The notes under the pieces were generated by a model, which worked only from the letters and a program-made list of their open reading frames with translations, had not been told where the DNA came from and did not search any database. A stretch of DNA of 64,000 nucleotides. Origin: Lacrimispora amygdalina (lineage in GTDB: Bacteria; Bacillota; Clostridia; Lachnospirales; Lachnospiraceae). Below are positions 3,235 to 25,844 of the stretch, in pieces. How positions within the stretch are numbered: the first letter of the stretch is position 1; every line of letters begins with the position of its first letter. Location: NCBI RefSeq assembly GCF_003432035.1, contig NZ_QOHO01000025.1, positions 62,001 to 126,000 on the forward strand, written 5' to 3'. A program made the translations under genes and the position numbers.

Positions 3235-3279
3235 GGTTTTGTGGGTAGTTTGATAAAAAATAAACAAAGGAGGTTGTTT

Positions 3280-4047
3280 ATGTTTCAGGAAGAATATTCA
3301 ACATTAGCAAAAGCAGCGGAAAACAAATCAAAGTTTCTTAAAAACAATCCTGTTGGTTACTGGGTTGCGGCCATGCTGGCAGGCATTTATGTTGGTTTTG
3401 GAATCCTGCTTATTTTCACGGCAGGAGGAATGATTTCAAACCAGCCTTACGTCAAGATTATTATGGGCGTCTCCTTCGGCATCGCTCTCAGTCTTGTTGT
3501 TATGGCAGGTGCGGAACTTTTTACCGGCAATAATTTAGTTATGGCCGGCGGTGTTTTCAGGGGTACGGTCACATTTGCACAAGCGGTAAAGCTGTGGGTG
3601 GTATGTTTACTTGGAAACTGGGCCGGTTCCATACTCCTTGCCCTTATTTTCTGGGGTGCCGGACTGGCAAAGGGACCTGTGGGAGAATTCATGGCCAATA
3701 CCTCTGCTGCAAAAATGGCACTTCCCCTTATTCCGCTCTTTTTAAGAGCAGTTCTTTGCAACATTTTAGTGTGCCTTGCTATCTGGTGCGGCTTCCGCTG
3801 CAAATCAGAAAGCGGGAAATTAATTATGGTATTCTGGTGTCTCTTTGCGTTCATTACCAGCGGTTATGAACACAGTATTGCAAACATGACACTTCTCACT
3901 GTGGGAATCTTAAGTCCAGGCGGAGCGGCTGTCTCTCTTTCCGGATATTTTTATAATATTCTGGTTGTAACCCTTGGCAATATGGCCGGCGGAATTTTAT
4001 TTACGGCTGTTCCATACTATCTGATTTCCGGAAAAAAGGAGGCTTAG
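3280..4047 (+). CDS. FNT-family anion channel, probable hydrosulfide channel of the asr operon
   Basis: Formate/nitrite transporter family membrane protein (255 aa from ATG 3280, chosen for the AAAGGAGG at 3267-3273; a GTG at 3208 lies inside the terminator hairpin and is rejected). It shows six hydrophobic segments and the FNT signatures AELFTGNNLVMAGG and GYEHSIANMTLL. FNT proteins encoded next to asrABC in Clostridioides difficile were shown to conduct HS-, the product of sulfite reduction. The gene ends one base before asrA, so the same role is inferred here: export of the sulfide made by AsrABC. Confidence 0.85.
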   Translation: MFQEEYSTLAKAAENKSKFLKNNPVGYWVAAMLAGIYVGFGILLIFTAGGMISNQPYVKIIMGVSFGIALSLVVMAGAELFTGNNLVMAGGVFRGTVTFAQAVKLWVVCLLGNWAGSILLALIFWGAGLAKGPVGEFMANTSAAKMALPLIPLFLRAVLCNILVCLAIWCGFRCKSESGKLIMVFWCLFAFITSGYEHSIANMTLLTVGILSPGGAAVSLSGYFYNILVVTLGNMAGGILFTAVPYYLISGKKEA

Positions 4048-4048
4048 C

Positions 4049-5068: not shown

Positions 5069-5852
5069 TGAATATCTTCCCTTCCGTTCTGAAATCAAAG
5101 AGGTAATCCGTCATACGGACATTGAATACACATTCCGCATGGCGTATCATGGAGACGTGAAACCGGGTCAGTTTTTCGAGGTTTCCATTCCTAAATTCGG
5201 AGAAGCTCCTATCTCTGTCAGCGGCATCCGGGAGGATTCGGTGGATTTAACCATTCGCCGGGTCGGAAAGGTGACCGGGGAAATCTTTGAGCGGTATCAG
5301 GGAGACAGCCTTTTTTTAAGAGGGCCTTACGGCAATGGATTTGACATAGAAAATTTCCGTGGAAAAGAACTGCTGGTCATAGCCGGCGGAACCGGACTTT
5401 CTCCAGTCAAAGGTGTGGTTGACTATTTTTCCAGCCATATGGAAGAAACAAAGGGTATGACCCTCATCGCCGGATTTAAAACACCGAAGGACATTCTTTT
5501 TCTGGAAGACTTCGGCAAATGGAAACAGGCGATGGAAGTCATACTGACCGTTGACTGCGCAGATGACGACACTGCCTGCCAGATCGGACTGGTCACCCAG
5601 TATATACCTAAATTAAAGCTGAAAAATAAAGATGAAACCACTGCAATCGTGGTGGGACCTCCTGCCATGATGCGTTTTACCACTCAGGGACTTTTGGATA
5701 TCGGACTGAAAGAAGAAAATATCTGGATTTCCCATGAACGGAAAATGTGCTGCGGAATCGGCAAATGCGGACACTGTAAAATTGATGACACCTATGTGTG
5801 CCTGGACGGACCTGTCTTTCCATTTACCAAAGGCCGCAAACTCTTGGATTAG
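5058..5852 (+). CDS. asrB: Anaerobic sulfite reductase subunit B (flavoprotein)
   Basis: Ferredoxin-NADP reductase-like subunit that oxidises NAD(P)H and passes electrons to AsrA and AsrC. An FAD-binding barrel comes first (SGIREDSVDLTIRRVGKVT), then the nucleotide-binding GGTGLSPVKG and VGPPAMMRFT, and a C-terminal cysteine cluster CCGIGKCGHCKIDDTYVC that binds [2Fe-2S]. Two in-frame ATGs, 5052 and 5058, follow GGAGG; the second has the better 9-base spacing, giving 264 aa. It overlaps the asrA stop. Confidence 0.93.
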   Translation: MNHNEYLPFRSEIKEVIRHTDIEYTFRMAYHGDVKPGQFFEVSIPKFGEAPISVSGIREDSVDLTIRRVGKVTGEIFERYQGDSLFLRGPYGNGFDIENFRGKELLVIAGGTGLSPVKGVVDYFSSHMEETKGMTLIAGFKTPKDILFLEDFGKWKQAMEVILTVDCADDDTACQIGLVTQYIPKLKLKNKDETTAIVVGPPAMMRFTTQGLLDIGLKEENIWISHERKMCCGIGKCGHCKIDDTYVCLDGPVFPFTKGRKLLD

Positions 5853-5867
5853 AAAGGGGAACGTCTT

Positions 5868-6830
5868 ATGGATATCAATACAAAGGAACTGAAAAAAAAT
5901 GCTTTCCGGGTAACGAAACACAGAGGCCTTACCGCCTCCCGCATCCGTGTTCCCGGCGGTCACTTAGAAGCCAGATTTTTACCAATGATTCAGAATATTG
6001 CCGATACTTACGGAAACGGCACGGTACACATTACCTCCAGGCAGGGGTTTGAGATCCCCGGAATTCCATTTGCGGATATTCCAAAGGTTAATGCCCTCCT
6101 CCAGCCGATTATAGAAGGTCTGGATATTAACCAGGAAAAATCGGGGCAGGGCTACAGCGCTGCCGGAACCCGGAATATTACCGCATGTATCGGCAACAAC
6201 GTCTGCCCTTATGCCTGCTACAATACAGCTGAGCTGGCAAAGAAAATCGAGAAAGCGGTTTTCCCAAACAACCTCCACTTTAAAATCGCACTCACCGGCT
6301 GTCCCAACGACTGCGCCAAGGTGCGGATGCATGATTTCGGCATTATGGGAATGACACTTCCCCACTACGATGCAGACCGGTGTGTCAACTGCGGCGCCTG
6401 TGTGAAGGCATGCAAACGGAAATCTACAGGGGCTCTTGAAACAGTAAACTGCAAGGTGGCACGCAATCATGAGACCTGCATCGGCTGCGGTGAATGTGTT
6501 CTTGCCTGCCCGACCCGTGCCTGGACCAGGAGTCAGGAGAAGTTTTACCGTCTCACACTTCTTGGCCGGACCGGTAAGAAAAACCCCCGCATGGGCGAAG
6601 ATTTCATCAAATGGGCAGACGAGGACAGCATTTTAAAAATTATTCTCAACACCTATGATTATGTGACAAAATACATTGATACCACCGCTCCGGGAGGGAA
6701 AGAGCACATCGGTTATATCGTAGACCGGACCGGATTTGAGGAATTCTACCGGTGGGCGATGAAAGATGTTTCTCTGCCGGAAGAAGCAAATGTGTATAAG
6801 CCCCTCTACTGGAAGGGTGTTAAATATTAG
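5868..6830 (+). CDS. asrC: Anaerobic sulfite reductase subunit C (siroheme catalytic subunit)
   Basis: Catalytic subunit (320 aa) reducing sulfite to sulfide at a siroheme-[4Fe-4S] centre. The siroheme-cluster cysteines are in ACIGNNVCPYACYN and TGCPNDCAK, the CX5C...CX3C pattern of the family. Between the ferredoxin-like sulfite reductase half-domain and the C-terminus lie two [4Fe-4S] motifs, CVNCGACVKACKRKS and CIGCGECVLACPTR. ATG 5868 follows AAAGGGGA. Last gene of the operon, followed by a strong terminator. Confidence 0.94.
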   Translation: MDINTKELKKNAFRVTKHRGLTASRIRVPGGHLEARFLPMIQNIADTYGNGTVHITSRQGFEIPGIPFADIPKVNALLQPIIEGLDINQEKSGQGYSAAGTRNITACIGNNVCPYACYNTAELAKKIEKAVFPNNLHFKIALTGCPNDCAKVRMHDFGIMGMTLPHYDADRCVNCGACVKACKRKSTGALETVNCKVARNHETCIGCGECVLACPTRAWTRSQEKFYRLTLLGRTGKKNPRMGEDFIKWADEDSILKIILNTYDYVTKYIDTTAPGGKEHIGYIVDRTGFEEFYRWAMKDVSLPEEANVYKPLYWKGVKY

Positions 6831-11676: not shown

Positions 11677-12663
11677 TTATTCTCTCATGGCTTTGTTGCA
11701 CAGGGAACAGTTTGCGCAGTCAGAAGGACTGCAGTGCATTCCGGGCCGTACAAAAGGTTCTATGGTAAAGCCGCATGATTCCAGTTTATATCTGTCATTT
11801 TCTATCATCACTTCGCCTGAATCCTGTAAAAACTCCACTTTAATACCCGATACAGTGAGGATCTCATCATAGAGCGGATGAGGTTTTATATGGGGAGAAT
11901 ATTTTTTCATCACCTCTTCCTCTGTCTGAACATAGATGGAGTGATCACAGGTAATAAGAGCTTTAATCTCTCCATTTTCCGTGAAAGACAGAGAATTGCT
12001 GTCTGCATTGATTCCGATCTGGTCCGGATCGTAAGCGGTAATTCTTCCGATTGGAGTCGGCAGCAGAACAGGCTCTGCCGGTTCCATTGATTTTAAACTT
12101 CCCGACTCATATAAGGACAGCCCCACCTTTGTTTCCACCAATCCCAGGGGAGTCCGTATGGAAGCCTTTTCTCCCGGAAACAAGGTAATACTCTTAATAT
12201 CACCGCTTTTATAAAAACACAGGCCATTGATCATTGCCTGAAATTCAGTAAAACCCAGATCAAAGGTCAGGGAAATGTTAAGCTCCCGCTCATCTTCCTC
12301 CGTCCAGAAACCGCTTATCTGCCCATCGAGAATAAATACCCGGTGAATCTCTCCGGTGGGATAAAATTTAATCAGTTCAGCCGGCAGCTCCCCAATGGGA
12401 GTAAGAACCTCCTGCTGCTCTTCCAGTGCCACACTGATCACCATTCCCTGCTTGTCAAATTCCACAGACGGCTTCTTTTTTCTTCTTCCGTTTTCCGTAT
12501 AGGCCGGAATCAGTTCTCCTGCCTGGGTGACGATCATATTTTTTTCCGACAGGCTCACTCCTGAAAGTTCTCCGCCTGGATGGCAGAGAAAGGAGTCCAC
12601 TCCGCCCAGGACTCCATAAGGAGTCTGAAGTGTCCGTGCGTCTAAAACCATATAATTTTCCAT
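11677..12663 (-). CDS. Repeat protein with cysteine-rich C-terminus, last gene of the nif operon; function unknown
   Basis: Not recognised. 328 aa from ATG 12663 (AGGAGGTGAAAGG in front). It is built of degenerate repeats combining a TPxG turn (LQTPYGVLGG, VLTPIGELPA, IRTPLGLVET, LPTPIGRITA) with a MORN-like xxYxSGxIKSxxL strand pair (FYPTGEIHRV, FYKSGDIKSITL, LYESGSLKSM, FTENGEIKAL). The last 25 residues carry four cysteines, CSPSDCANCSLC, suited to a metal or Fe-S site. No signal peptide, so cytoplasmic. Codon use matches its neighbours. It overlaps no other gene and lies 14 bases after the AnfO-like gene, so it is co-transcribed with nif. A scaffold or accessory role in nitrogenase assembly is only a guess. 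Confidence 0.8.
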   Translation of the reverse strand: MENYMVLDARTLQTPYGVLGGVDSFLCHPGGELSGVSLSEKNMIVTQAGELIPAYTENGRRKKKPSVEFDKQGMVISVALEEQQEVLTPIGELPAELIKFYPTGEIHRVFILDGQISGFWTEEDERELNISLTFDLGFTEFQAMINGLCFYKSGDIKSITLFPGEKASIRTPLGLVETKVGLSLYESGSLKSMEPAEPVLLPTPIGRITAYDPDQIGINADSNSLSFTENGEIKALITCDHSIYVQTEEEVMKKYSPHIKPHPLYDEILTVSGIKVEFLQDSGEVMIENDRYKLESCGFTIEPFVRPGMHCSPSDCANCSLCNKAMRE

Positions 12664-12677
12664 CCTTTCACCTCCTG

Positions 12678-13289
12678 CTAACACTGTTTTCTGGTTACCG
12701 TTATATGTACTCCGCCCTCCCGCGGGCGGACCTTTTTTTCATAGGAAGCATCTGTTTCCAGCCATGGGGGAATGTGGGCACAGACAAGGCGCAGTTCCAG
12801 AAACGGAGTATTGGAAAGGAATGATAAAAGCGCCTTTTTGGAGGAAATCTCCGGGCACTCCTTCTGAAGCTGCATTAAATCCAGAAAATAGATTCCAGGC
12901 GTTTCCGTTTCCACAGGTCCGGCATTCTTAATCATCTCTTCTTTCCTTCTTCGTTTTTCATCACTTTCTTCCATATCCCTTACCACTCCGTTTAATGTGT
13001 CCTGATCCGCTTTTGGGGCACAAAAGATGCAATATCCCTTTTGGTTGAATACGGAAAAGGGGATTCCTGAAAGTTCTCTGCACAGAACTGCTTTTGCATC
13101 CTCTGTGAGAGCCAGGACAGCTTCCGTTTCTTTTCTTAGTTCCTCAACTGTAGTTCCTTTTATTGCGGAAAAGGGAGAGGTCCGCACCACCTGCCACTGT
13201 GTCCCCTCTTTTTGAAAAATTTCCACCAGATTACAATGCAAAAAAGGAACAAGTTCCTGATTTTTACTGATTACCGCTATTTTTTCCAC
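12678..13289 (-). CDS. AnfO-like nitrogenase accessory protein
   Basis: 203-aa cytoplasmic protein starting at GTG 13289, nine bases after AAGGAGG. The N-terminus (KIAVISKNQELVPFLHCNLV ... WQVVRTSPF) resembles the small cofactor-binding fold of NifX/NafY/AnfO proteins, and the C-terminus (ISSKKALLSFLSNTPFLELR then CAHIPPWLE) fits the AnfO family, known from Fe-only nitrogenase operons. The centre is charged (DEKRRRKEEMIK). Here it belongs to a Mo-type cluster with no anfG/vnfG. AnfO function is poorly defined; cofactor or redox handling is inferred from context. The family call is from memory of its C-terminal motif and needs a profile search. Confidence 0.65.
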   Translation of the reverse strand: MEKIAVISKNQELVPFLHCNLVEIFQKEGTQWQVVRTSPFSAIKGTTVEELRKETEAVLALTEDAKAVLCRELSGIPFSVFNQKGYCIFCAPKADQDTLNGVVRDMEESDEKRRRKEEMIKNAGPVETETPGIYFLDLMQLQKECPEISSKKALLSFLSNTPFLELRLVCAHIPPWLETDASYEKKVRPREGGVHITVTRKQC

Positions 13290-13304: not shown

Positions 13305-13595
13305 TTACCCATCAATTTCAACCACATTGCCATGGATCAGTTTTGCAAGAAATTCCTCCAGCTCAAGCCTTGCATCTTCTTCGTCAATATTTTTTTCCCG
13401 GGATAAAAGAGCGGTCAGTTCCCCCACTCCTGCCCCCCTCTCCAGGCTGTTCCATAAAAAGATGCAGATTTCATTTACCGACGGCAGACCATCTAAGGAA
13501 CCATTCTGGCTGTCTCTTTCATCAAAAATACAGAATTCTCCCCCAAGTTCCTTTAATGTAAATCCAGGCTTCAGCTTTACTTTCCTGATGTTCAT
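13305..13595 (-). CDS. PqqD-like protein (RiPP recognition element fold)
   Basis: 96 aa, ATG 13595 one base after the stop of the GroEL-like gene (AAGGGGCTGAT in front), so translationally coupled. The pattern VKLKPGFTLKELGGEFCIFD, LPSVNEICIFLWNSLERG and a C-terminal acidic helix region (IDEEDARLELEEFLAKL) ending GNVVEI is that of PqqD, the winged-helix domain that holds leader peptides for radical-SAM RiPP enzymes. No precursor peptide or stand-alone RiPP radical SAM enzyme is visible nearby; the only radical SAM protein in the operon is the NifB part of NifN-B. A PqqD-like protein in a nif operon is unusual and its partner is unknown. Confidence 0.75.
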   Translation of the reverse strand: MNIRKVKLKPGFTLKELGGEFCIFDERDSQNGSLDGLPSVNEICIFLWNSLERGAGVGELTALLSREKNIDEEDARLELEEFLAKLIHGNVVEIDG

Positions 13596-13596
13596 A

Positions 13597-14991
13597 TCAG
13601 CCCCTTAACCTTTCTATATCCACTCCGCTTTTTATCAGCTCCAAATCTTCTCTGTCATATCCGGTACTCACCATGACGGCTCCGGTTGTCAGCCACATGA
13701 CAATCAGCCCGCAGATCTTCTGAATCATCAGGATAAGCAGATATGCGCTGATTTCCTCTTTTTTAAAGCTTTGTCTCATGGACTCTTTCAGGAACCTTTC
13801 TGCTTCTGTTCCGGCCGGAAAGTTGTTTAAATCATCTTTTTTTAGTACTCCATACTGCTTCACCGACTGATAATAGGCAACTGCAGATTCGATTCTTCTT
13901 TTCTCTTCCTTCGCCTGTAAGGTTGTGTATCCGCCTGCATAAATCACAGGGGCACAGCCCATTAATCCTGCAATTCTTTCTCTTAATTTCTGCTTATCAT
14001 AATAATTGGTTTTGGGATCGCGGATGCGTTCTTCTATCCCCTCAATCCGTCTGCAAATCCGGCTGTTATCCGAATTTCCCTCCATAACCGTATAGGAACC
14101 GGCAGCTGTCACCGTTTTTGCCCGCCCCAGCATGGCTTTCGAAACTTCTTCTATTCTGCAAGGATAAATACCGTCAAAAACCACCGTATCCGTATACACC
14201 GCAGCGTCCTCTAACAGATCCTCTTTTCTCCTGCCCATTCCCGGCGCTTTCATGGCTCTTACATGAATGCGGTTCTGCTTTACATTTGCATTAAGAAGAG
14301 TCAGAGCTTCCCCCTCTATCCCGTCAGCCAGAATGAATAAATTCTGCTGTCCGGTCTTTTCAAGAAGAGGATAGAGGCTTGAAAAGGAAGTGATGGGGGT
14401 TTTTACAATCAGGACCAGGGCATCCGATACCGTTCCTTCCGCTCCCACTGCCAGCCCTCCTTCAAGACGCATTCCTCTGGTAATTTCCAGCCTTGTTTCC
14501 CCAAACATGGAATCTTTTACAACCACCTCACCCACGTTTGATCCATCAACAACCATTTGGGCAGTCTCCCGGTCTTTGGTAATCGCTTCTACCAGATCCG
14601 CTTTTGCATCAGACAGGGGAACCGCTTCTTCACGGACAAATGCTTCCAGGGTTTTTGCAGCTGCCTTCAGCTCCCTGGCGAGAAGTACCGGACTGATTCC
14701 CGATGCCGATTTTCTCTCACAATAGGCCAGAAGCTCCGCTGCCAGACGTGCTGACTCTCCGGTTCCGCAGCCTGCAGTCTGGTTAATCTCACCAATGGCC
14801 TGCGCTGCCAGACGGATACCCTGATTGAAAAATAAATCCGTTCCCTCAAGCTTTCCTGCCACCTCCGCAGCGGAAAAGCTGTAAACTCCGTTTACCAGCA
14901 CCTGTCCTTCTAAGGAGAGAACACGGCAGAGACTTAAAATTCCTTCCGCCAGTTTTTTTCTGCCATCATCAAATTTAATCTTCCGAATCAT
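13597..14991 (-). CDS. GroEL/Cpn60-related protein lacking ATPase aspartates, in the nif operon
   Basis: 464 aa from ATG 14991 (GGAGGGAAGAGGA in front). Collinear with GroEL: FFNQGIRLAAQAIGEINQTA matches FENMGAQLVKEVASK; FILADGIEGEALTLLNAN matches LLIIAEDVEGEALATLVVN; MKAPGMGRRKEDLLEDAAVY matches [20 protein letters not shown]; then YYDKQKLRERIAGLMG and KEEKRRIESAVAYYQ. So equatorial, intermediate and apical parts are all present. The nucleotide site is not: GDGTT is GCGTG (Cys75 for GroEL D87), the D398 position is Ser, and the TLGPKGRN and KDG (D52) segments are gone. It is shorter than GroEL (about 540) and lacks the GGM tail. Probably a non-ATPase chaperonin derivative for nitrogenase assembly; the role is inference, the homology is clear. 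Confidence 0.85.
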   Translation of the reverse strand: MIRKIKFDDGRKKLAEGILSLCRVLSLEGQVLVNGVYSFSAAEVAGKLEGTDLFFNQGIRLAAQAIGEINQTAGCGTGESARLAAELLAYCERKSASGISPVLLARELKAAAKTLEAFVREEAVPLSDAKADLVEAITKDRETAQMVVDGSNVGEVVVKDSMFGETRLEITRGMRLEGGLAVGAEGTVSDALVLIVKTPITSFSSLYPLLEKTGQQNLFILADGIEGEALTLLNANVKQNRIHVRAMKAPGMGRRKEDLLEDAAVYTDTVVFDGIYPCRIEEVSKAMLGRAKTVTAAGSYTVMEGNSDNSRICRRIEGIEERIRDPKTNYYDKQKLRERIAGLMGCAPVIYAGGYTTLQAKEEKRRIESAVAYYQSVKQYGVLKKDDLNNFPAGTEAERFLKESMRQSFKKEEISAYLLILMIQKICGLIVMWLTTGAVMVSTGYDREDLELIKSGVDIERLRG

Positions 14992-15796
14992 TCCTCTTCC
15001 CTCCATTCATTATGGAATTTAAAAGATTTTCCCCTTTTTTGATATCCGTACTGCTGACACTTAAATCAAATTTACGGGCTGCACTATGGACAAATTCATA
15101 GAGGTTGCAATTTCCTGCCCTCTCTCCGATTCCAAGCAGCGTTCCATCCACCAGATCTGCGCCTGCCAGCGCCATGACCATGGAATTGGCCACTGCCATT
15201 CCAAAGTCATTATGTTCATGAACCTCAATCATGATACCTGTCTGCTTTATTTCCCGTACCAGTTCCCCTGCCCGTTTTGGGAACAATACCCCAACCGTAT
15301 CAGCAAGACGAATGGTCTCCACTCCCTTTTGTTTCATCAGACGGATTAAAGAGACTAAAAATGCCACATCTGCCCTTGAAGCATCTTCTAAACCTACCGT
15401 AATGGGAATGTTATAATCCCTGGCAACTACAATACATTCCTGTAGGGAATTTTCAATCCATTTTTTATTTTTTCCTAACTTATTATAGATCTGCGCATAA
15501 GACACAGGGGTCCCGATATGAATTAAGTCCGGTTTCTGCCTGGCTGATTCCTCTACATTCCCAGGGTTTAGTCTGGACCAGAGGGAGATTGCTGCCTGCT
15601 TTTTCTTTTTCATAATTTCGCTGATATAATGAACGCCCTCTGTACCTACATCGTAAATCCCCGCCTCGATTTCAGAAACACCGATGCTGTCCAGAAACAA
15701 AGCCAGACGCACCTTGTCAGAAGGTGAGAATACGACACCCGGACACTGTTCGCCATCCCGAAGAGTGGTATCAACTATTTTGATTCGCCTTTTCAT
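14975..15796 (-). CDS. nifV-alpha: Homocitrate synthase alpha subunit (catalytic barrel)
   Basis: N-terminal TIM-barrel half of a split homocitrate synthase, which condenses acetyl-CoA and 2-oxoglutarate to give homocitrate for FeMo-cofactor. 273 aa from ATG 15796 (a GTG at 15811 is less likely). Catalytic motifs are intact: IKIVDTTLRDGEQCPGV, the metal-binding HEHND, and GTLLGIGERAGN. It ends after the barrel, with no communication domain; that part is the preceding gene. C. pasteurianum has the same split. It overlaps nifV-omega by 26 bases and the GroEL-like gene by 17, so the three are translationally coupled. Confidence 0.9.
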   Translation of the reverse strand: MKRRIKIVDTTLRDGEQCPGVVFSPSDKVRLALFLDSIGVSEIEAGIYDVGTEGVHYISEIMKKKKQAAISLWSRLNPGNVEESARQKPDLIHIGTPVSYAQIYNKLGKNKKWIENSLQECIVVARDYNIPITVGLEDASRADVAFLVSLIRLMKQKGVETIRLADTVGVLFPKRAGELVREIKQTGIMIEVHEHNDFGMAVANSMVMALAGADLVDGTLLGIGERAGNCNLYEFVHSAARKFDLSVSSTDIKKGENLLNSIMNGGKRNDSED

Positions 15797-16754
15797 ACTT
15801 ATCACACTCACTCATAATTGTTAAAAACTCTTCATCAGTTACTTCCCCGCCCTTTTTAATGCTGAGCCGTTTTACCATTTCCAGAATATGCTCCACTGAA
15901 CAACAGTCTTCCATATGGTACTGCTTCAGCTTATACCGAATGGACGTACCCCCGGAATGCTTTCCCAGGATCACCTTTCTTGATGCTCCCACAAGCTCCG
16001 GAGGAAAAGATTCGTAATTGGATGGTTTTTTCAAAACTCCATCCACATGCAGCCCGGATTCAATATAAAAGATCTTTCTTCCGATGACAGGTGTATGACC
16101 TGGGATCTGTGTATTTGTCATGGCTTCAAAGATGTTACGTAAGTCAGCCAGCTTCTCGAAGCTGTTGTTGGGTTTATAGCGTTCCACCACTCTCATGGCC
16201 AGAATAACCTGCTCGGTGGCAGCCTTGTTGCCGATACCGGTAAAAGTGGTCATCACGGTTCCGTTATGGTGATTTTGTAAGTAATCCGCCGCAATGGCAG
16301 AAGCACAATAGCAGGAGTTTTCCGGATACAGGATGGGAGAAGCCTGGATTAAAAGCTTCATTCCCCGTTCATAAATATCACGGCTTTCATAAATGAGTAA
16401 ATCGTCCAGTCCCGTAAGCCTTAGCTTATTATCCGGTCCGGCACTTTCCAGCCCTCTTAACTCTGATACATCATTGACCTGAATATTGCGTATATACTTT
16501 CCGGTACCATCGCAAAAAGAGGAAAGGAAGAAATGAATTCCGGGATATTTCCCGCTTTCCGATGGATTTGGAAGTTCCATATACCAGGTGATTCCCTGTG
16601 GTAATTCGCCCTGCATCAGCTGGTAAACTTTTGGAGTTAACACAGCTCCCCATACGCAAAGACTTTCTAAGGTCCGGGCAAACTCAAAAATAAGTTCCTT
16701 TTTTAACGGATATTCCTCCAGCATAGTCAGTGTGGCATCAATGATTTTAATCAA
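15771..16754 (-). CDS. nifV-omega: Homocitrate synthase omega subunit (C-terminal half, degenerate barrel)
   Basis: Second piece of the split homocitrate synthase (327 aa). The start is TTG 16754, seven bases after GGAGGG; no ATG fits. The first about 150 residues look like a decayed barrel: IKIIDATLTMLEEYP stands where DTTLRDGEQ should be and the metal HxH is absent. The rest is the family's C-terminal domain (FTGIGNKAATEQVILAM, IESGLHVDGVLKKP, VILGKHSGGTSIRYKL). It should therefore be a non-catalytic partner completing the active site of the alpha subunit. Positioned between the ferredoxin and alpha genes. Confidence 0.88.
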   Translation of the reverse strand: MIKIIDATLTMLEEYPLKKELIFEFARTLESLCVWGAVLTPKVYQLMQGELPQGITWYMELPNPSESGKYPGIHFFLSSFCDGTGKYIRNIQVNDVSELRGLESAGPDNKLRLTGLDDLLIYESRDIYERGMKLLIQASPILYPENSCYCASAIAADYLQNHHNGTVMTTFTGIGNKAATEQVILAMRVVERYKPNNSFEKLADLRNIFEAMTNTQIPGHTPVIGRKIFYIESGLHVDGVLKKPSNYESFPPELVGASRKVILGKHSGGTSIRYKLKQYHMEDCCSVEHILEMVKRLSIKKGGEVTDEEFLTIMSECDKYEKANQNS

Positions 16755-16802
16755 CAGCAAACCCTCCTTTTTCCCGTGCTCCCTTCCATGTCATAACAGC
16801 TG

Positions 16803-17111
16803 CTAGATCATTAAATCACGAACCGGTTTTCCCCCCTCAAAATGTTCATCAAAGATGCGTTCCACATCGTCCCCGGATACATTGCCGTACCAGACTCCTT
16901 CCGGATAAACCACCACAACAGGCCCCTTGTCACAGATTCCAAAGCACCCGGTATTGTTTATTACCACCTCTCCGGACATCTCTCTGTCTTCAATCTCCTG
17001 CATAAAAGCCTGGATTAAGTCAACCGCTCCTTTCTGAAAGCACATCCCTTTTTGAGTTCCGTTGATTCTGCAGCTTGTGCAGATAAATACATGATATTTT
17101 GGCTGTACCAT
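16803..17111 (-). CDS. [2Fe-2S] ferredoxin, thioredoxin-like, nitrogenase-associated
   Basis: 102 aa, the same length and closely similar sequence to the C. pasteurianum [2Fe-2S] ferredoxin: FICTSCRINGTQKGMC supplies the first cysteines and NNTGCFGICDKGPVVVVYPE the others, within a thioredoxin-like fold. The C. pasteurianum protein binds specifically to its MoFe protein, so a role in electron transfer to, or redox interaction with, nitrogenase is expected. ATG 17111 follows GGAGGAG. Located between nifN-B and nifV-omega. Confidence 0.92.
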   Translation of the reverse strand: MVQPKYHVFICTSCRINGTQKGMCFQKGAVDLIQAFMQEIEDREMSGEVVINNTGCFGICDKGPVVVVYPEGVWYGNVSGDDVERIFDEHFEGGKPVRDLMI

Positions 17112-17124
17112 TTTTCTCCTCCTC

Positions 17125-19755
17125 TTACATGGCTTCCGCCGCTTTTTTTACCGCATCTTCAATCATGTCATAGGTATTCACCGGCTTGATCCCCAGCTTT
17201 GCCAGCTTTTTGGCTGGCTCCATGCCGATGCGCATGGCAATGACTCCGTTGCAGCCGTTTAAAGCAGCTATAATCCGTTCAATTTTATCCTCTTTTTCCC
17301 CGCATTCCTCTTCCCCCTGACAATACTGTTCCACATTTCTTTTTTCTGCAAACCGGACTTCCCCATTCCGGTAATCATATAAATAAAATTCCTTTGCATG
17401 GCCGAAGTGGGTATCCACTACGACTCCGCTTTTAGAAGCGACTGCAAACCGGTAGCTTTTTGGAACAGGGACAAAAACCGGCTTTTCCTCAGACAGAAAT
17501 CCTTTTAATTGTATAGATTTATCATCCGTTAACGTTCCAACCGCATCTGCCCGGCAGTGCTGGCAGTGATACATCTGGGGCATGATCTCTTCACACTGTT
17601 TTCTGATCTCATTTAGCTGCTTGTTTGAAACAGGCTCCACATGCTCCAGCGCGCTTCCCTTTACCGGAATCATCTGCATTATATTGGTGATAAAGCAGCC
17701 CAGTGATTTCACAGCCTTTACCACCTCCGGTACATGACTGTCATTGATTCCCTTCACTGTTACGATATTGACTTTTACCAATATATCACTGGCAATTAAA
17801 AGCCTGATTCCCGCAAGCTGGTTTGCCACCATGAGAGCTCCTGCCGCGTCACCGGTGTATTCCCTGCCCATGAACCGGATATATTGATACATCTGTCCGC
17901 TGATATGGGGATCAACCGCATTCATTGTTACTGTTACATGGGAAACTCCCAGTTCCTTTAGTTCCCTGGCATACTGGGGCAGCTTCAGTCCATTGGTGGA
18001 AAGGCAGAAGGTCACTTTTGGATCCTCCTTCCTTATGAGTTCAAACACTTTTTTCACATTCTCCCAGTTTTCCAGGGCTTCTCCCGGTCCGGCTATGCCC
18101 ACTACGGTTAAGTTCGGCATTTTTTCTTTCACTGACAGGTACCGCTTAAGCGCTTCTTCAGGCGATAAGATGGAAGAAGTGACTCCGGGACGGCTTTCAT
18201 TTGGACAGTCAAATTTTCTCACACAGTAGCCGCACTGAACGTTGCAGGCAGGGGCTACCGGAAGATGGATTCTGGCGAACTGATGGGCCTGGCAGTTATA
18301 GCAGGGGTGCTCCTTAGTCTTGCGTTTCATGATCTCTTCTTCCGATTCCGGCTGCTTTTTATGATCAATGGCTGTGCCTTTGTAGTATGTATCATATAAG
18401 GTTTCGCGGAATGTGGTTTCAACGGTATCAATGAGCTGGTTTGCAATCTCATCCATATATTCCACGGAGCCTTCATAGCCCAGCATTTTTAACCGCTGGC
18501 CCCCTACATGGTCATGAATGGGAAACCCTCTGCGAACCAGGGGAAGATGTAAATCTTCTGCAATGCGCCTTCCGTCAGAACTGCCGGTCAGGATATTGGC
18601 TTTATAGGCAAGAACCATATCCTCAATATCCTTAAAATCTGCTTTATCTGCTATTTTATATTCGTCCACCAGATACAGACCCGCAAGTTTTTCAATCTCC
18701 GGTCTGATCAGTCCGTCAAGCTCTGGACTTGCCGATCCTGCCGCACAGACGACCGGCATGATTCCGCATTCACACATCATGCGCACTGTGGAATATACCA
18801 GATCCGGCTCCCCAAATACAGCGGCTCTCCCGGCAGAATGGTATTTGTGGGAATCAATCATGGCATCAATATAGCGCCCTCTCTCTTTTTTCAGTTCCTC
18901 CGGGATTTCATTACCGGAAATACGGGACAGTGCATTTAAAAATGCATCTGTATCTCTTAAACCTGCCGGCAGGGACAGCCGCTCATAAGGGACTCCATAT
19001 GTTTCAGACAGATATTCTCCCACCGAATTCTTATGGTGAAATGCGGTTAATTCCAGAGTAAATCTGGCTCCCCCCATCTGCTTTAACCGGGCCAGTTCCG
19101 TTCCTTCATGAGGAAGACGGTTGTAACGGGGATCGTGGGCACCGTCTAAATTATCGGATAAATCAGGCAGAAGAATGGCGTCAATCCCAAAGAGAGAAAG
19201 CATCCTCTTTAGATATCTGGTATCTGCAGGGCTTAAGGGCGCTGTGATTACATTTACCAGATTATTCTTTTTGGCATCCATTTTAATAGAAGAAACAATG
19301 GCAGAAAGGGCTGCAAAATATCCCTCATACTGGCTTCCCCCATATCCGGGAGAATGGCAGGGGATCAGCGTAATGTCCCCGTACCCCGGATTTTCTTCCA
19401 GAAAAGACTGGAGTATTCCCGGAACATCCTCTCCAATGGTCTCCGCCAGACAGGTTGTCATAACACCGATAATTTCCGGATGGTAAAGCTCAATTAAATT
19501 TTTTAATCCCTTTTTCAGATTTTCACTGCCGCCATAAACCGTTCCCTGTTCTGTCAGGGATGAGGAAGCGATATCCACCGGTTCATTGTAGTGAGTCGCC
19601 ATATGACGGCGGATGTAGGTTGCACACCCCTGAGAACCATGAAGGATGGTCATACAGTTCTTCAGACCGTAAAATGCAGTTGCACTGCCCATAGGCATAC
19701 ACATTTTGCAGGGATTGATATTTAGATTCACCAGAGGTTTTACTTCACTTTTCAT
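17125..19755 (-). CDS. nifN-nifB: Fused NifN-NifB: cofactor scaffold and radical SAM FeMo-co precursor synthase
   Basis: 876-aa fusion. Residues 1 to about 445 are NifN (NINPCKMCMPMGSATAFYGL, GSQGCATYIRRH), the half of the NifEN scaffold on which the cofactor matures. From about 480 comes NifB, a radical SAM enzyme with CNVQCGYC, which makes the carbide-containing 8Fe core. The last 110 residues are a NifX-like domain (VDTHFGHAKEFYLYDYRNGE). Start at ATG 19755 after AAAGGCGG. The fusion is a hallmark of clostridial nif clusters and delivers the NifB product directly to the scaffold. It follows nifE, its partner. Confidence 0.96.
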   Translation of the reverse strand: MKSEVKPLVNLNINPCKMCMPMGSATAFYGLKNCMTILHGSQGCATYIRRHMATHYNEPVDIASSSLTEQGTVYGGSENLKKGLKNLIELYHPEIIGVMTTCLAETIGEDVPGILQSFLEENPGYGDITLIPCHSPGYGGSQYEGYFAALSAIVSSIKMDAKKNNLVNVITAPLSPADTRYLKRMLSLFGIDAILLPDLSDNLDGAHDPRYNRLPHEGTELARLKQMGGARFTLELTAFHHKNSVGEYLSETYGVPYERLSLPAGLRDTDAFLNALSRISGNEIPEELKKERGRYIDAMIDSHKYHSAGRAAVFGEPDLVYSTVRMMCECGIMPVVCAAGSASPELDGLIRPEIEKLAGLYLVDEYKIADKADFKDIEDMVLAYKANILTGSSDGRRIAEDLHLPLVRRGFPIHDHVGGQRLKMLGYEGSVEYMDEIANQLIDTVETTFRETLYDTYYKGTAIDHKKQPESEEEIMKRKTKEHPCYNCQAHQFARIHLPVAPACNVQCGYCVRKFDCPNESRPGVTSSILSPEEALKRYLSVKEKMPNLTVVGIAGPGEALENWENVKKVFELIRKEDPKVTFCLSTNGLKLPQYARELKELGVSHVTVTMNAVDPHISGQMYQYIRFMGREYTGDAAGALMVANQLAGIRLLIASDILVKVNIVTVKGINDSHVPEVVKAVKSLGCFITNIMQMIPVKGSALEHVEPVSNKQLNEIRKQCEEIMPQMYHCQHCRADAVGTLTDDKSIQLKGFLSEEKPVFVPVPKSYRFAVASKSGVVVDTHFGHAKEFYLYDYRNGEVRFAEKRNVEQYCQGEEECGEKEDKIERIIAALNGCNGVIAMRIGMEPAKKLAKLGIKPVNTYDMIEDAVKKAAEAM

Positions 19756-19773
19756 CGTCACTCCGCCTTTCTG

Positions 19774-21129
19774 TCAGCTGATATATCCCCATACCGGACT
19801 GTTTATGCTTTTATTGATTTCCATGGTGAAATTGACCACCCCTTCAAAACCAGCTAACGGGAACTTTCTTTCATGGTTGTGATCGCAGAATGCAATTCCC
19901 AGCTTATAGGCAAGAGGTCTTTCCTTTACACCTCCCACCAGAATATCCGCTCCCTTTTCTTTCATAAAGGTTTCTAACTCTGCAGGATTTGCATCATCAA
20001 GAATAATGGTATCGGATTTCACCAGACTCTCAATCATTTCATAATCTTCCTTTTTCCCTGTCTGGGTTCCGACCACCACAGTTTCCATCCCCATAGCCTG
20101 GAACTGGCGGATGAGAGAGATGGCCTTAAATCCCCCTCCTACATAGATAGCGGCTTTTTTCCCCTCCAGATTTTTCCGGTACCGGCTTAAGAAGTTTTCC
20201 AGCTCCTCCCCTTTCTTTCTGCAAAATTCTACCGCCTTTTTTCTGGCCAGTTCATTTCCCAGTGCCTCAGCCGTCCGGATTAAAGAATTGGTGGTATCCT
20301 CGATTCCGAAGAAACTGACCTTTATAAAGGGAATACCGAATTCCTCCTCCATGCGGTTTGCCAGATAGGTGCTTGAGCCTGCACACTGGACAATATTTAA
20401 TGCAGCCTTCGGCGCTTCAATCATATCTTCATAGCAGGTGTCACCGGTAAAACCGGAGATCACATCAATCCCTATCTCCCTGAAATAATTTTTAATAATC
20501 CACATTTCTCCTGCCAGATTAAAATCCCCTAATATGTTAATGGCAGTCCTCTTCTCTTCACTTTTATGGGGAAGAAGCACGTTCATAATGGCATCACATG
20601 CCATCCGGTAGCCGGTGGATTTATTACCGGAAAAGCCGGGAGACTTTACAGGAATCACAGGAATGTGATACTGCTCTGATTTCATCTTACATAAGGCCTC
20701 CACATCGTCTCCGATCACGCCGACAATGCAGGTGGCATAGATAAATATCAGCTTTACGTTATCTTCCTTCTCCATCAGTTCATCGACTGCTGCCTCAAGC
20801 TTTCTGATTCCGCCGAATATAATATCTGTTTCCTGCAAATCCGTAGAAAAGCTGTTTCTGTAAATGTCCTCCCCGCTTGTTAAGGACCCCCTGATATCCC
20901 AGGTATAGCTGGAACACCCGATTGGACCGTGGACGATATGCCAGGCATCGGTAATGGGATTTAAAACAACTCTGGCTCCGCAGTATACACAGGCCCGCTG
21001 TGATACGGAACCGGATACACTGTTGCTGTCACATGAAATTCCGCCCCCCGGACCATTGCACCCGTCTTTTACAACAATGGAACTTCTCCTGGCGTCCAAT
21101 ATATTCCTGTTGCTGTTCTCCGTTTCCAT
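19774..21129 (-). CDS. nifE: Nitrogenase cofactor scaffold protein NifE
   Basis: 451 aa from ATG 21129, chosen for the AAAGGAG seven bases before it. Together with NifN it forms the scaffold that matures the FeMo cofactor. It carries NifD-like cofactor and cluster motifs: QRACVYCGARVVL, HGPIGCSSYTWDIRGS, YATCIVGVIGDDVEALC, and KSPGFSGNKSTGY. About 85 bases separate it from nifK, more than at other junctions of the operon, and these hold a stable hairpin. Confidence 0.95.
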   Translation of the reverse strand: METENSNRNILDARRSSIVVKDGCNGPGGGISCDSNSVSGSVSQRACVYCGARVVLNPITDAWHIVHGPIGCSSYTWDIRGSLTSGEDIYRNSFSTDLQETDIIFGGIRKLEAAVDELMEKEDNVKLIFIYATCIVGVIGDDVEALCKMKSEQYHIPVIPVKSPGFSGNKSTGYRMACDAIMNVLLPHKSEEKRTAINILGDFNLAGEMWIIKNYFREIGIDVISGFTGDTCYEDMIEAPKAALNIVQCAGSSTYLANRMEEEFGIPFIKVSFFGIEDTTNSLIRTAEALGNELARKKAVEFCRKKGEELENFLSRYRKNLEGKKAAIYVGGGFKAISLIRQFQAMGMETVVVGTQTGKKEDYEMIESLVKSDTIILDDANPAELETFMKEKGADILVGGVKERPLAYKLGIAFCDHNHERKFPLAGFEGVVNFTMEINKSINSPVWGYIS

Positions 21130-21170
21130 GATCATACTCCTTTCAAAGACCCGCCAATTTAAACAGAAAT

Positions 21171-21193
21171 AGGGAGGGGTCGGCTCCCTCCCT
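21171..21193 (-). other. Intercistronic hairpin between nifK and nifE
   Basis: AGGGAGGG (21171-21178) pairs with CCCTCCCT (21186-21193); in the transcript this GC-rich stem-loop follows the nifK stop and is followed by ATTTCTGTTT. It could protect the upstream nifHDK message or partly terminate, lowering nifEN relative to nifHDK. Confidence 0.6.
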
Positions 21194-21213
21194 GGTTCCA
21201 TTCACTTTCTGAT

Positions 21214-22587
21214 TTACATAACTACATCAAAATCTTCGTCAGCCGCATCCCGGTCCTGCCGGTCCATCATGGCATCTACGATCTTTTCCGTATACCGGAT
21301 TGCACCTGCATATCCTACAGTCGCCTGTATGGGGTTTCCGTAGCGGTCCAGTACAGGAAATCCCATCCGCACCAGCGGAATATCTTCTGCTTTTGCAATC
21401 TGCTTTCCATAGCTGGAGCCTAAAAGAAGATCTACCCGCTCATTTTTAATCAGCTGATGGAGATAAAATAAATCCGTATCTGCCTTCACCACATATTCGC
21501 TTTCATCCACTCCATACTGATCCATCAGCTCTTTGATCTCTTTCTCCCAGTGAGCTTTGGGGGTACCGGTTATGATGTATTTGGGACTCATTCCCAGTTC
21601 CAGGCATAAGGCGGTGAAGCCATACACAATATCAGGATCTCCGTAGATGGCGGCTTTCTTCTTATATACATACTGGTGGGAATCCAGCATTAAATCCACC
21701 AGTCTGCCCCGCTCATCCTCCAGCTCTTTGGGTACCTCTTTTTTTGTAAATTTCTGAAGCTCCAGTATGTACTGGTCTGTCAGCTTGACGCCTACAGGGA
21801 CTGGAATATTGGAGAAAGGAACTTTGTATTCCTTTTTTAAATGCTCCGATGGTTCCAGCGAACAGTAGATTCCCATGGAAATCAGCTTCTCACAATCTCC
21901 CAGCGCTTCAATATCTTTGGCTTTGGTACCTGCATTGTCATGGAAATATTCATTCTTTCCATCCATTGGATGATCCAGTGTTCCGTCATGATCAGGAAAA
22001 TAAATATATTCCGCACCCATCAGCCCTGCAATCCGTTTTAGCTCCCTGTCATCTCCGGGATTGACCCAGCCCGGGAAAATGGCTACTTTTCCATTGGGCG
22101 TTCCCGTTTTCTTCGTCATATACCGCATGAAACCAATCATCATGTTGGAAAAGCCCTGAATATGGGACCCTTCATAGGAAGGTGTACTGGCATAAAGGAC
22201 TGTTTTTCCCTCAGGCACTTCCATATCCAGAATATAGGAACCAACGTCGTCACCAATGGTCTCTGAAAGACAGGTGGTGTGTATTGCCATAATATCCGGT
22301 TTATAAATATCAAAGACGTTCTTTACTGCTGTATTAATATTGCTGCGTCCTCCGAATACGGAGGCTCCCTCTGTAAAGGAGCTTGAGGAAGCAATGGCAG
22401 GCTCTTTGAAATGCCGGCTCAACACCGTTCTGTGATAGGAACAGCACCCCTGGGATCCATGGGAATGGGGCATGCACTTTTCGGCACCCAGAGCGCAGAA
22501 CATCGCTCCTACCGGTTCACAGGTCTTACAGGGATTGATGGTCATGTGGCGGTTTTCCATAATTTCTTTTGGTGTTAATTCAAGCAT
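21214..22587 (-). CDS. nifK: Nitrogenase MoFe protein beta subunit
   Basis: 457 aa, close to the short C. pasteurianum NifK, which lacks the roughly 50-residue N-terminal extension of A. vinelandii. Start at ATG 22587, eight bases after AGGAGGT and overlapping the nifD stop (TGATG), so alpha and beta are translationally coupled. P-cluster cysteines are in INPCKTCEPVG, HGSQGCCSYHR and HTTCLSETIGDD. With NifD it forms the catalytic tetramer that reduces N2. Confidence 0.97.
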   Translation of the reverse strand: MLELTPKEIMENRHMTINPCKTCEPVGAMFCALGAEKCMPHSHGSQGCCSYHRTVLSRHFKEPAIASSSSFTEGASVFGGRSNINTAVKNVFDIYKPDIMAIHTTCLSETIGDDVGSYILDMEVPEGKTVLYASTPSYEGSHIQGFSNMMIGFMRYMTKKTGTPNGKVAIFPGWVNPGDDRELKRIAGLMGAEYIYFPDHDGTLDHPMDGKNEYFHDNAGTKAKDIEALGDCEKLISMGIYCSLEPSEHLKKEYKVPFSNIPVPVGVKLTDQYILELQKFTKKEVPKELEDERGRLVDLMLDSHQYVYKKKAAIYGDPDIVYGFTALCLELGMSPKYIITGTPKAHWEKEIKELMDQYGVDESEYVVKADTDLFYLHQLIKNERVDLLLGSSYGKQIAKAEDIPLVRMGFPVLDRYGNPIQATVGYAGAIRYTEKIVDAMMDRQDRDAADEDFDVVM

Positions 22588-24185
22588 CAGCCAGCACCTC
22601 CTAACGTTCCTTCTAACATCGGCATGGTTTTCCACGGCGGTTTTACCAGTGACCAGGCATTTGTATAAAGACTCATGGTTAAATCTCTTCCAAAGTTTAC
22701 TGCTCCCCGAAAGCCCGCATACGGTCCGGAATAGTCATAGGAATGCATCTGGCGGGATACGACTCCGCCATGCTGTATGGCATATTTATCCTTGATTCCG
22801 GAAAAGAAAATGTCTGGTTTATACTCTTCAATCAGCTGGTCTGTCTCGAACATGTTGTAGTCATCCACCACCATATAGCCTGCCTTCATGTCTTTTATCA
22901 TTCCGCTGTAGTTATCCAGTTCCACCCCTTCATTTCTAAGAACTTTCAACTCCTCCTCAGAGTATCTGTCCTCATATCCCACTGCCCTCTCCACCGAAAT
23001 CTCCTCGATGTTTTTAGAATCTGCATCGGCCTTGATCTGAGGAATGATTTCCCGCCCCTCATAATCATCACGATGGGCAAATTCATAGCCTGCAATGGTT
23101 GTTTCCATACCAAAATCCCTTAAAAGCATCTGGTAATGATGGGAACGGGAACCTCCCACAAAGATTCCGGCTGTTTTTCCCTTTAATTTGGATTTGTAAT
23201 ACTCCATATCCTCATTGATTTCCGCCAGTTCCTCTGCAATCACTTCTTCCGTGCGTTTCGTCAGCTCCGGATCATTGAAATATTTCGCCATCATCCGCAG
23301 TGATTTGGACGTAGCCCCTACTCCGATAAAATTCACCTTCAGCCAGTCAACTCCATATTTTGTCTTCATCATCTCTGCTATGTAATTGATAGACCGGTGG
23401 CACATGACCAGATTTAAATCTGCCAGATGGGAATTTTTTAAGGTTTCATAGGAACCGTCACCGGTAAATACAGAAACCACTTCATATCCAATCTTTTTAA
23501 GAATCCGTTCCTGTTCCCAGCCGTCACCACCAATGTTGTATTCGCCTAAGATATTTACGCTGTATTTTCCTTTGGGCGCTTCTTCCCCTTTTCCGATTAC
23601 GTAACGCATCAATCCGTTGTTTGCGATGTGATGACCGGCTGACTGGGAAACTCCCTTATAGCCTTCGCAGGAATAGCCGATAGCAGTAATGCCGTATTTT
23701 TCCTCCACTCTTCTTGCCACTGCCTGCACATCATCACCAATCAGACCGATGGGACAGGTGGAGCAGATGAAAATACACTTAGGATGGAAAAGTTTCATTA
23801 TCTCATCAATTCCCTCTTCCAGCTTCTTCTCTCCTCCAAATACGATATCCGATGCCCTCATATCTGTACAAAAGGAATATGGAACAAAATTGGGTTCACC
23901 TTCGTAGGAAGGTTTCGCTTTATTCCTTCTGGTTCCCCAGGAATAGAAAGCACAGCCAATGGGACCGTGTGTAATGACGACTGAATCCTTAACCGGTCCA
24001 ACCACAACGCCTTTACAGCCTGCATAGCAGCAGCCCCTTGCTGTAATAATCCCTGGTATTGCCCTGGTATTTGCTGTAATCTCATCCGGATTTTCTCCGA
24101 ATTCCAGCTGAGTGATGTGACTTTTTCTATTTTTAAATACTCTGGATGAATATTTATCCAGCAATAAATCTCGTTCCTTTGACAT
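22587..24185 (-). CDS. nifD: Nitrogenase MoFe protein alpha subunit
   Basis: 532 aa from ATG 24185 (AGGAGGTGAGGGAA in front). Holds FeMo-cofactor and half the P-cluster. Visible ligands: P-cluster cysteines in GCCYAGCKG, GPIGCAFYSW and CSTCPIGLIGDD; cofactor cysteine in NLVMCHRSINY; cofactor histidine in RQMHSYDYSGPYAGF; and the substrate-site segment SCEGYKGVSQSAGHHIAN, equivalent to A. vinelandii Q191/H195. The acidic insert around 380-430 (NIEEISVERAVGYEDRYSEE) is characteristic of the C. pasteurianum type. No anfG/vnfG gene follows, so this is a Mo nitrogenase. Confidence 0.98.
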   Translation of the reverse strand: MSKERDLLLDKYSSRVFKNRKSHITQLEFGENPDEITANTRAIPGIITARGCCYAGCKGVVVGPVKDSVVITHGPIGCAFYSWGTRRNKAKPSYEGEPNFVPYSFCTDMRASDIVFGGEKKLEEGIDEIMKLFHPKCIFICSTCPIGLIGDDVQAVARRVEEKYGITAIGYSCEGYKGVSQSAGHHIANNGLMRYVIGKGEEAPKGKYSVNILGEYNIGGDGWEQERILKKIGYEVVSVFTGDGSYETLKNSHLADLNLVMCHRSINYIAEMMKTKYGVDWLKVNFIGVGATSKSLRMMAKYFNDPELTKRTEEVIAEELAEINEDMEYYKSKLKGKTAGIFVGGSRSHHYQMLLRDFGMETTIAGYEFAHRDDYEGREIIPQIKADADSKNIEEISVERAVGYEDRYSEEELKVLRNEGVELDNYSGMIKDMKAGYMVVDDYNMFETDQLIEEYKPDIFFSGIKDKYAIQHGGVVSRQMHSYDYSGPYAGFRGAVNFGRDLTMSLYTNAWSLVKPPWKTMPMLEGTLGGAG

Positions 24186-24200
24186 TTCCCTCACCTCCTG

Positions 24201-24584
24201 TCAATATGCCTCTATTGTGCGTTCTCCGCTTCTGACGGTGTAAGCCTCATAAATGGGAAGCACAAATATTTTTCCGTCGCCGGGATTTCCTGTCTGGTTT
24301 GTTTTTATCAGTATTTCCACCACATCCTTTACCTGCTGATCTTCTACAATCAGGGTGATCAGCCTTTTTGGAATCCAGCGGAAGGACTCCGTTAAATATT
24401 CTCCTTTGGGAGACATGGGAAGCTCTCCTGTTTCCAGTACCAGGGACAAAAGCTCCGGATCAATCCGTTTCTTTCCTCTTCCTAATACCGGTCTGCAGGT
24501 AAATGCAGGAAATCCGCCTTCTGCCAGAGCTTTCTTCGTGGGGTTTATTTTGTTCACCCGGATAAATGCCATTACCTCTTTCAT
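24201..24584 (-). CDS. nifI2: P-II-like nitrogenase regulator NifI2
   Basis: 127-aa P-II family protein. In archaea and anaerobic bacteria NifI1 and NifI2 form a complex that binds and switches off the MoFe protein when ammonium is available, relieved by 2-oxoglutarate and ATP. The N-terminus MKEVMAFIRVNKINPTKKAL and the C-terminal GNPGDGKIFVLPIYEAYTVRSGE are P-II signatures; the T-loop is long, as in NifI2. Placed between nifH and nifD, as in methanogens. ATG 24584 follows AGGAGG. Confidence 0.95.
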   Translation of the reverse strand: MKEVMAFIRVNKINPTKKALAEGGFPAFTCRPVLGRGKKRIDPELLSLVLETGELPMSPKGEYLTESFRWIPKRLITLIVEDQQVKDVVEILIKTNQTGNPGDGKIFVLPIYEAYTVRSGERTIEAY

Positions 24585-24598
24585 AGCAATCGTTCCTC

Positions 24599-24922
24599 CT
24601 AAAGTCCCTGCTTTCCTGTACTGATGGTATAAGCATCTTCTACAGGAGACACAAAGATACGTCCGTCTCCGTAATTGCCTTCCCCAGTCCTTGCGGTTCT
24701 CATAATCACTCTGACCAGATCGTCCTTATCTTCGTCGTTGCAGAAAAATAACAGCATTTCTTTTGGAATCTCATCGTAGTGAACATCTCCTACCGTGATT
24801 CCTTTCTGTTTGCCCCGTCCATATACATCCATCTTGGTCACTGCCTGAAATCCCGCTTCTGAGGCTTCCTTCATAACAAAATCCGCTTTTTCCGGCCTGA
24901 TAATCGCTCTCACCAATAACAT
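24599..24922 (-). CDS. nifI1: P-II-like nitrogenase regulator NifI1
   Basis: 107-aa P-II protein, partner of NifI2 in post-translational switch-off of nitrogenase. MLLVRAIIRPEKADFVMKEA and GEGNYGDGRIFVSPVEDAYT are the family ends, with T-loop VYGRGKQKGITVGDVHYDEI. ATG 24922 follows GAGGAG, 25 bases after the nifH stop. Confidence 0.95.
   Translation of the reverse strand: MLLVRAIIRPEKADFVMKEASEAGFQAVTKMDVYGRGKQKGITVGDVHYDEIPKEMLLFFCNDEDKDDLVRVIMRTARTGEGNYGDGRIFVSPVEDAYTISTGKQGL

Positions 24923-24947: not shown

Positions 24948-25844
<897 letters not shown>

Follow-up and report, generated by a model that had tools for sequence, protein, structure and literature searches.

What does a chaperonin without ATPase residues do in a nitrogenase operon? 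This question is raised by groELx (13597..14991, minus strand), which encodes a chaperonin-like protein of 464 amino acids in the window, a 64,000-nucleotide stretch of Lacrimispora amygdalina DNA taken from contig C94 in a draft genome of 5.9 Mb. An alternative start is possible at 15006, five codons earlier. GroEL is already known to take part in nitrogenase assembly, Ribbe and Burgess having reportedly described a role in MoFe-protein assembly in 2001; to our knowledge, the assembly step that needs GroEL is not settled. PMC10017450 describes the co-expression of groES and groEL with nif genes when nitrogenase is built in other hosts. Among the titles and abstract beginnings of the open-licence literature, we found no description of a GroEL-like protein encoded in a nif operon.

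Identity and operon of groELx

groELx is a GroEL paralogue by descent, an identity that is well supported by sequence. The protein scores 156.7 bits against the GroEL equivalog model TIGR02348 (cut-off, 582.1) and stays below all GroEL cut-offs in the NCBIfam profile search, and its score against Pfam PF00118 (Cpn60_TCP1) is 13.1 bits, under the gathering score of 34.3. NCBIfam also has exception models for two bacterial variants of GroEL, the chlamydial GroEL2 and GroEL3 proteins; groELx matches these models weakly, at 24.5 bits for GroEL2 and 56.5 bits for GroEL3 (NF038369, E 2e-15), far from the curated score of 600 in each case. The equatorial, intermediate and apical domains of the chaperonin fold are all present. 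The descent from GroEL that an earlier note on this DNA had claimed is thus borne out by homology and fold, and the chaperonin match expected of a profile search is found with NCBIfam but stays under the cut-off with Pfam. An ordinary GroEL is encoded elsewhere in the same genome, and therefore groELx is no replacement for GroEL.

groELx lies in a packed run of 14 genes on the minus strand, in the order nifH-I1-I2-D-K-E-NB-fdx-Vw-Va-groELx-pqqD-anfO-orf335. The run opens with NifH (24948..25772) and continues with NifI1 (24599..24922) and NifI2 (24201..24584), both named from position and PII-like sequence with no family search, NifD (22587..24194; best model TIGR01282, slightly below its cut-off), NifK (21214..22635; best model TIGR01286, slightly below its cut-off) and NifE (19774..21201; NCBIfam). 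These are followed by a NifN-NifB fusion with a C-terminal Nitro_FeMo-Co domain (17125..19761), a 2Fe-2S ferredoxin (16803..17111; NF041612), nifV omega, the second part of homocitrate synthase (15771..16760), and the HMGL-like nifV alpha (14975..15811). As the earlier note had placed it, groELx sits between nifV and a PqqD-like gene: its start overlaps nifV alpha by 17 bp, and the PqqD-like gene (13305..13595; PF05402) follows after 1 bp. An AnfO-like gene (12678..13289; PF09582, E 3e-39) and orf335 (11677..12684), which has no match in Pfam or NCBIfam, end the run. The gaps are -49 to 42 bp throughout, and a single transcription unit from nifH to orf335 is therefore likely. The best NCBIfam models of NifH, NifD, NifK and NifE are the ordinary (molybdenum) nif ones. 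Promoter and terminator scans gave chance-level results only, and no groES was found in the operon stretch.

Several neighbours recur elsewhere. Among 11 nif operons examined in other Lachnospiraceae, seven (L126, L128, L129 and L131-L134) have the AnfO-like gene, whose name derives from the Fe-only nitrogenase, after nifV. Relatives of orf335 occur in 7 of the 11 operons as well, and the copy in L131 has a weak, sub-cut-off MORN_2 match. By eye, an asrABC-like anaerobic sulfite reductase set is recognisable at window positions 3208-6830, preceded by a Crp-like regulator and a channel gene of the formate/nitrite type.

Loss of the nucleotide site and of contact surfaces

Residues were compared between 17 aligned groELx orthologues and E. 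coli GroEL. The 18th orthologue (L040/L056), which has the same Cys at the place of GroEL D87, was excluded; its first residues are absent, and several genes in that stretch are frameshifted; in L056 (CP070896), the frameshifts affect nifD, nifE, nifN-B, anfO, orf335 and others and resemble sequencing errors. GroEL residues T30-P33, D52, D87, D398, G414-G416, N479 and D495, which we take to be the catalytic and nucleotide residues, are replaced or without counterpart in all 17 orthologues, the one exception being G32, where 7 of the 17 have Gly. In every aligned orthologue, T30 is Glu or Asp, D52 is Ser or Ala, D87 is Cys, S151 is Ile and D398 is Ser, Tyr or Cys; G414-G416 are replaced. The Cys at the place of Asp87 is Cys75 in the window protein (codon 14767..14769, minus strand). 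Segments without counterpart in this protein include P33-N37, 46-50, 203-210 and 445-502. groELx thus differs from group I GroEL/Cpn60 in having no Asp at 52, 87 and 398, in the loss of the phosphate loop and residues 445-502, and in the replacement of hinge glycine 375, with hinge glycines 192 and 410 kept. The earlier note had read the protein as stripped of its ATPase residues, and the site is indeed destroyed in 17 of 17 orthologues. ATP hydrolysis is therefore not expected from the sequence, nor, probably, is ATP binding.

Does groELx retain the surfaces with which GroEL meets its partners? Y199, Y203, F204, L234, L237, L259, V263 and V264 are presumably the apical client- and GroES-binding residues of GroEL, and groELx does not preserve this set. 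L237 is kept in all 17 orthologues and L259 in 15, but Y203 and F204 have no counterpart, Y199 is replaced, L234 is Tyr in 15, V263 is Asn, Thr or Ser in 14 and V264 is Ala in 12. These losses make general GroEL-like client or GroES binding unlikely, speak against the holding of unfolded chains, and render a specific client or partner more likely than a role as a GroEL-like general holder. At presumed ring-contact positions, groELx has other residues in place of R197 and E386, Arg or Lys at K105 and mostly Ser at A109. Positions 452-464, which we take to be inter-ring positions, are missing, which argues against a double seven-fold ring.

Selection and evolutionary rate

The changes described above could be those of a decaying groEL copy that is stuck in the operon, or kept only for the translational coupling of its neighbours. 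Fast evolution relative to the nif genes would fit such a passenger: within the genus, identity to the window is 88-97% for NifD and 51-90% for groELx, and in the far half of the genus groELx falls to 51-60% where NifD remains at 88-94%. Absence of groELx from the 11 other nif-positive genomes examined points the same way. However, dN/dS is 0.13-0.17 between the window and eight close loci, 17 of 18 genomes have a full-length open frame (the exception being L040/L056, where the first residues are absent), and 122 of 464 columns are invariant in the 17 orthologues. Decay or passive retention is already disfavoured by these observations, and we consider it very improbable. At the same eight loci, dN/dS is 0.02-0.05 for nifE, 0.04-0.06 for nifVa and 0.16-0.27 for anfO; at more distant loci, where synonymous sites approach saturation, the obtainable values for groELx are 0.11-0.26. 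groELx is thus under purifying selection, as judged from these substitution patterns, yet evolves faster than the nif core.

The C-terminal segment and the PqqD-like neighbour

The most conserved stretch of groELx is residues 433-464 (13600..13695, minus strand), which comprises a segment aligned with the GroEL C-terminal strand and a new tail after it; 19 of its 32 columns are invariant in the 17 orthologues. The tail of the window protein is TGYDREDLELIKSGVDIERLR. In GroEL, the C-terminal strand contacts the neighbouring subunit, and chloroplast chaperonins form mixed rings. Could groELx join ordinary GroEL rings through this segment as an adaptor subunit that tunes them for nitrogenase, with the partner supplying the ATPase? 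The strand-aligned segment, with 6 of its 10 columns invariant, ranks with the best-conserved parts of the protein, an ordinary GroEL is available in the genome, and specialised chaperonin subunits are known in chloroplasts (PMC5780408). On the other hand, the presumed stem loop 46-50 has no counterpart, the ring-contact changes at R197, E386 and 452-464 speak against ring entry, and end branches in the tree reach 0.66 changes per column for groELx in the genus, compared with 0.06-0.14 for the ordinary GroELs of the family. Moreover, the AlphaFold model has low confidence from residue 438 and places a helix to 442, with no strand, where the strand is expected; the C-terminal strand of groELx is therefore not confirmed. 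We regard an adaptor subunit as unlikely.

The PqqD-like neighbour belongs to a subfamily that exceeds 120 bits in 7 of 80 genomes, a selected sample with 13 nif-positive members. The seven are two genomes of the genus, the seeds G045 and G170, and G054, G324 and G368; the last three, the only non-seed matches outside the genus, are all nif-positive. Hypergeometric values for this subfamily and for the small ORF described below were set aside as inflated because most matches were profile seeds. The G054 relative adjoins modA and is near nifH, and those of G324 and G368 are away from nif. In the region L197:3443-7928, the G324 relative is near genes that resemble, by eye, moaC, moaA and other molybdenum-cofactor genes. 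In L132 a relative sits between nifH and mod genes, and in L196 one adjoins modA; a molybdenum link of the subfamily is possible.

Such a link would suit a different reuse of the chaperonin body, in which Cys75 and Cys22 serve as ligands of a metal or cluster, a peptide is presented by the PqqD-like protein, and no folding factor is involved. Both cysteines are invariant in the 17 orthologues, and the PqqD relatives beside mod genes hint at molybdenum. However, two cysteines are few for a cluster, and the distant relative in L098 has Cys at the Cys22 place yet keeps Asp at 87. We regard a carrier of metal, cluster or peptide as unlikely.

Distribution

An initial family search matched 245 of 250 genomes, among the matches listed nearly always through ordinary GroEL, and was uninformative; a profile of the C-terminal tail was therefore used in its place. 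A plasmid search returned 1286 records, all below 60% identity, the 20 listed ones being annotated GroELs or unannotated.

groELx is found in 18 of 25 genomes of the genus, including the one that contains the window; NifD is found in those same 18, and the remaining 7 have neither (E 1e-45 for both proteins; Fisher 2e-6 with shared ancestry ignored). This co-occurrence concerns one genus and depends on ancestry. The tail-profile scan of genome contigs yielded 15 loci, in records titled Lacrimispora (six), Clostridium (five), Paenibacillaceae MAG (three) and Hungatella (one). All 15 are nif operons with the same visible order from nifD (nifE in L051) to orf335; pqqD is missing beside groELx in L064/L100. 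L099 (50% identity) has the same operon order, so that the nif-operon location holds for the 15 loci, L099 and the window. The proposed nif link is upheld by these counts, and the expectation that homologues keep to nif clusters is correct for nearly all of them, L098 being the one exception.

Across 397 genomes of the family, the tail profile had four matches. Two of these genomes, G000 and G271, belong to the genus, G045 contains a genuine distant relative, and the G074 match (21.7 bits) is taken as chance. In the class, convincing matches among 391 genomes were restricted to G000 and G271, and three others, with E 0.006-0.01 and no more than 17.6 bits, were set aside as chance matches. A partial match of 34.5 bits was seen in the nif-positive genome G038. 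Eighteen stretches around second GroEL matches were not counted as relatives because they hold no nifHDKENB, PqqD or small-ORF relative at E 0.01.

groELx is absent from all 11 other nif-positive Lachnospiraceae examined, namely ten genomes with nifB above the cut-off and G165, whose operon was seen in L136. Nitrogenase therefore has no general need of groELx. Matches to nifB at 1e-60 occur in 52 genomes: 12 above the cut-off, G165, and 39 others below it; the survey of nif operons drew on genomes above the cut-off and G165.

Related and captured chaperonins

The exceptional locus L098 (genome G045, 84% complete) encodes a small ORF, a chaperonin and a PqqD relative (41% identity), in this order. 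The chaperonin is in partial decay, with one in-frame TGA. It keeps TYGPNGK, GDGS and GGG, has Ser at D52 and D398, lacks part of the 455-490 region and carries a C-terminal tail of the groELx type. In the tree it groups with groELx (support 99/94), subject to a warning about long branches, but overall it resembles groELx no more closely than ordinary GroEL does; the suggested link is based on the tail, the neighbouring PqqD relative and the tree position. No nif genes were seen on the 14-kb contig, and the 52 genomes with nifB matches do not include G045. Either the family lives outside nif, or this genome lost nif, or the nif contig is missing from the assembly.

A second case is provided by G324. 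In its nif operon (L131), orf335 and an ORF related to the small one of L098 (43% identity) precede a complete GroEL paralogue, which scores 598.9 bits against TIGR02348, over the cut-off; no groES is nearby, and the ordinary GroEL of this genome is on a separate contig. Sisterhood of the nif-operon copy with groELx is not supported: the two are not joined in the tree, and an AU test (p 0.025) leans against it, with the caveats that the group was named after tree inspection and that branches are long. The two captures by nif operons may therefore be independent. Second GroELs are encoded in G368 and G319 as well, away from their nif genes. Rhizobial nif-linked groESL sets, which are complete GroEL/GroES pairs, likewise tie a GroEL copy to nitrogen fixation; among the loci examined, the nearest to such ordinary nif-linked copies is the G324 one, complete and in a nif operon, without groES.

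The small ORF defines a protein family ending in FEL[IL]GDQ (L131:4229-4756, L129:1466-1885, L098:6181-6609 and L195:7218-7625), which occurs in three nif-positive Lachnospiraceae and L098 and twice adjoins a chaperonin. It is convincing in 4 of 392 family genomes, the seeds G324, G045 and G050 (beside nifH) and, in addition, G054, where it is on a different contig from nif; a G126 match (20.2 bits) was dropped as chance. The ORFs of L098, L129 and L131 were folded (pLDDT 86), and no PDB match was found at E 0.001.

Proposed function

How could such a protein serve nitrogenase? We propose, tentatively and at somewhat less than an even chance, that groELx is a nucleotide-independent, client-specific holder, clamp or scaffold for one nif protein and that its tail docks a partner. 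A GroEL paralogue entered the nif operon in a single Lachnospiraceae genus and there lost its ATP site, the residues of inter-ring contact and a large part of the surface for general client and GroES binding, but kept the three-domain body. With no ATP site or inter-ring contacts and with reduced lid and client surfaces, it would no longer cycle; it would clamp or scaffold its client during cofactor assembly without nucleotide. Natural candidate clients are apo-NifDK, NifEN or NifN-B, and the partner docked by the conserved tail would be, in the first place, the adjacent PqqD-like protein. Descent, site loss, purifying selection, operon place and NifD co-occurrence in the genus are read directly from the sequences, and a specific clamp or scaffold appears to be the most economical reading of a three-domain body selected within a nif operon. 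In its favour we count the site loss in 17 of 17 orthologues, dN/dS, NifD co-occurrence, the kept operon order, the G324 nif-operon GroEL and the PqqD-subfamily matches in nif-positive genomes; against it stand the 11 nif-positive genomes without groELx, the L098 locus without nif, the missing pqqD in L064/L100, the replaced hinge glycine 375 and the low-confidence tail in the model. Function is inferred, and the overall interpretation of the earlier note is supported in part, that is, for GroEL descent, ATPase-site loss and the nif link.

An analogy extends this proposal. BBS chaperonin-like proteins serve one assembly pathway and, as groELx, are diverged chaperonins (MKKS/BBS6, BBS10 and BBS12). 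According to PMC2846930, such ATPase-poor chaperonin-like proteins are already known, the GDGT hydrolysis motif being changed in MKKS and BBS12; these proteins are group II and eukaryotic and keep the Gly-Pro ATP-binding dipeptide, which has no counterpart in groELx. By this comparison, groELx is possibly, though on balance doubtfully, a dedicated nucleotide-independent maturation factor of nitrogenase and a bacterial counterpart of the BBS proteins. A PqqD-type partner may read the tail as peptide-binding RRE domains read leader peptides. groELx would then be a bacterial instance of a chaperonin that has lost its ATPase but is maintained by selection for a single pathway. A nif-operon chaperonin that is not expected to use ATP separates holding from ATP-driven folding, offers a clean genetic handle on the assembly step that needs GroEL and has a bearing on attempts to build nitrogenase in other hosts. 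If nif operons have indeed captured GroEL copies repeatedly, a degraded one in Lacrimispora and a complete one in G324, it would follow that a private chaperonin is favoured in nitrogenase assembly.

Other Lachnospiraceae contain a recurring cassette with a divergent second GroEL and no groES match (L154:5063-8119, L155:4968-8945, L158:5062-7137 and L153:4541-7439). Its neighbours are a small Trigger_C-domain protein (PF05698; tested in L154, L155 and L158) and a ketopantoate-hydroxymethyltransferase-like protein (PF02548; L153, L154 and L155), and the cassette may encode another pathway-private chaperonin. A very divergent GroEL paralogue is also located 3' of URO-D-like and pterin-binding-enzyme genes in L156:5202-9722.
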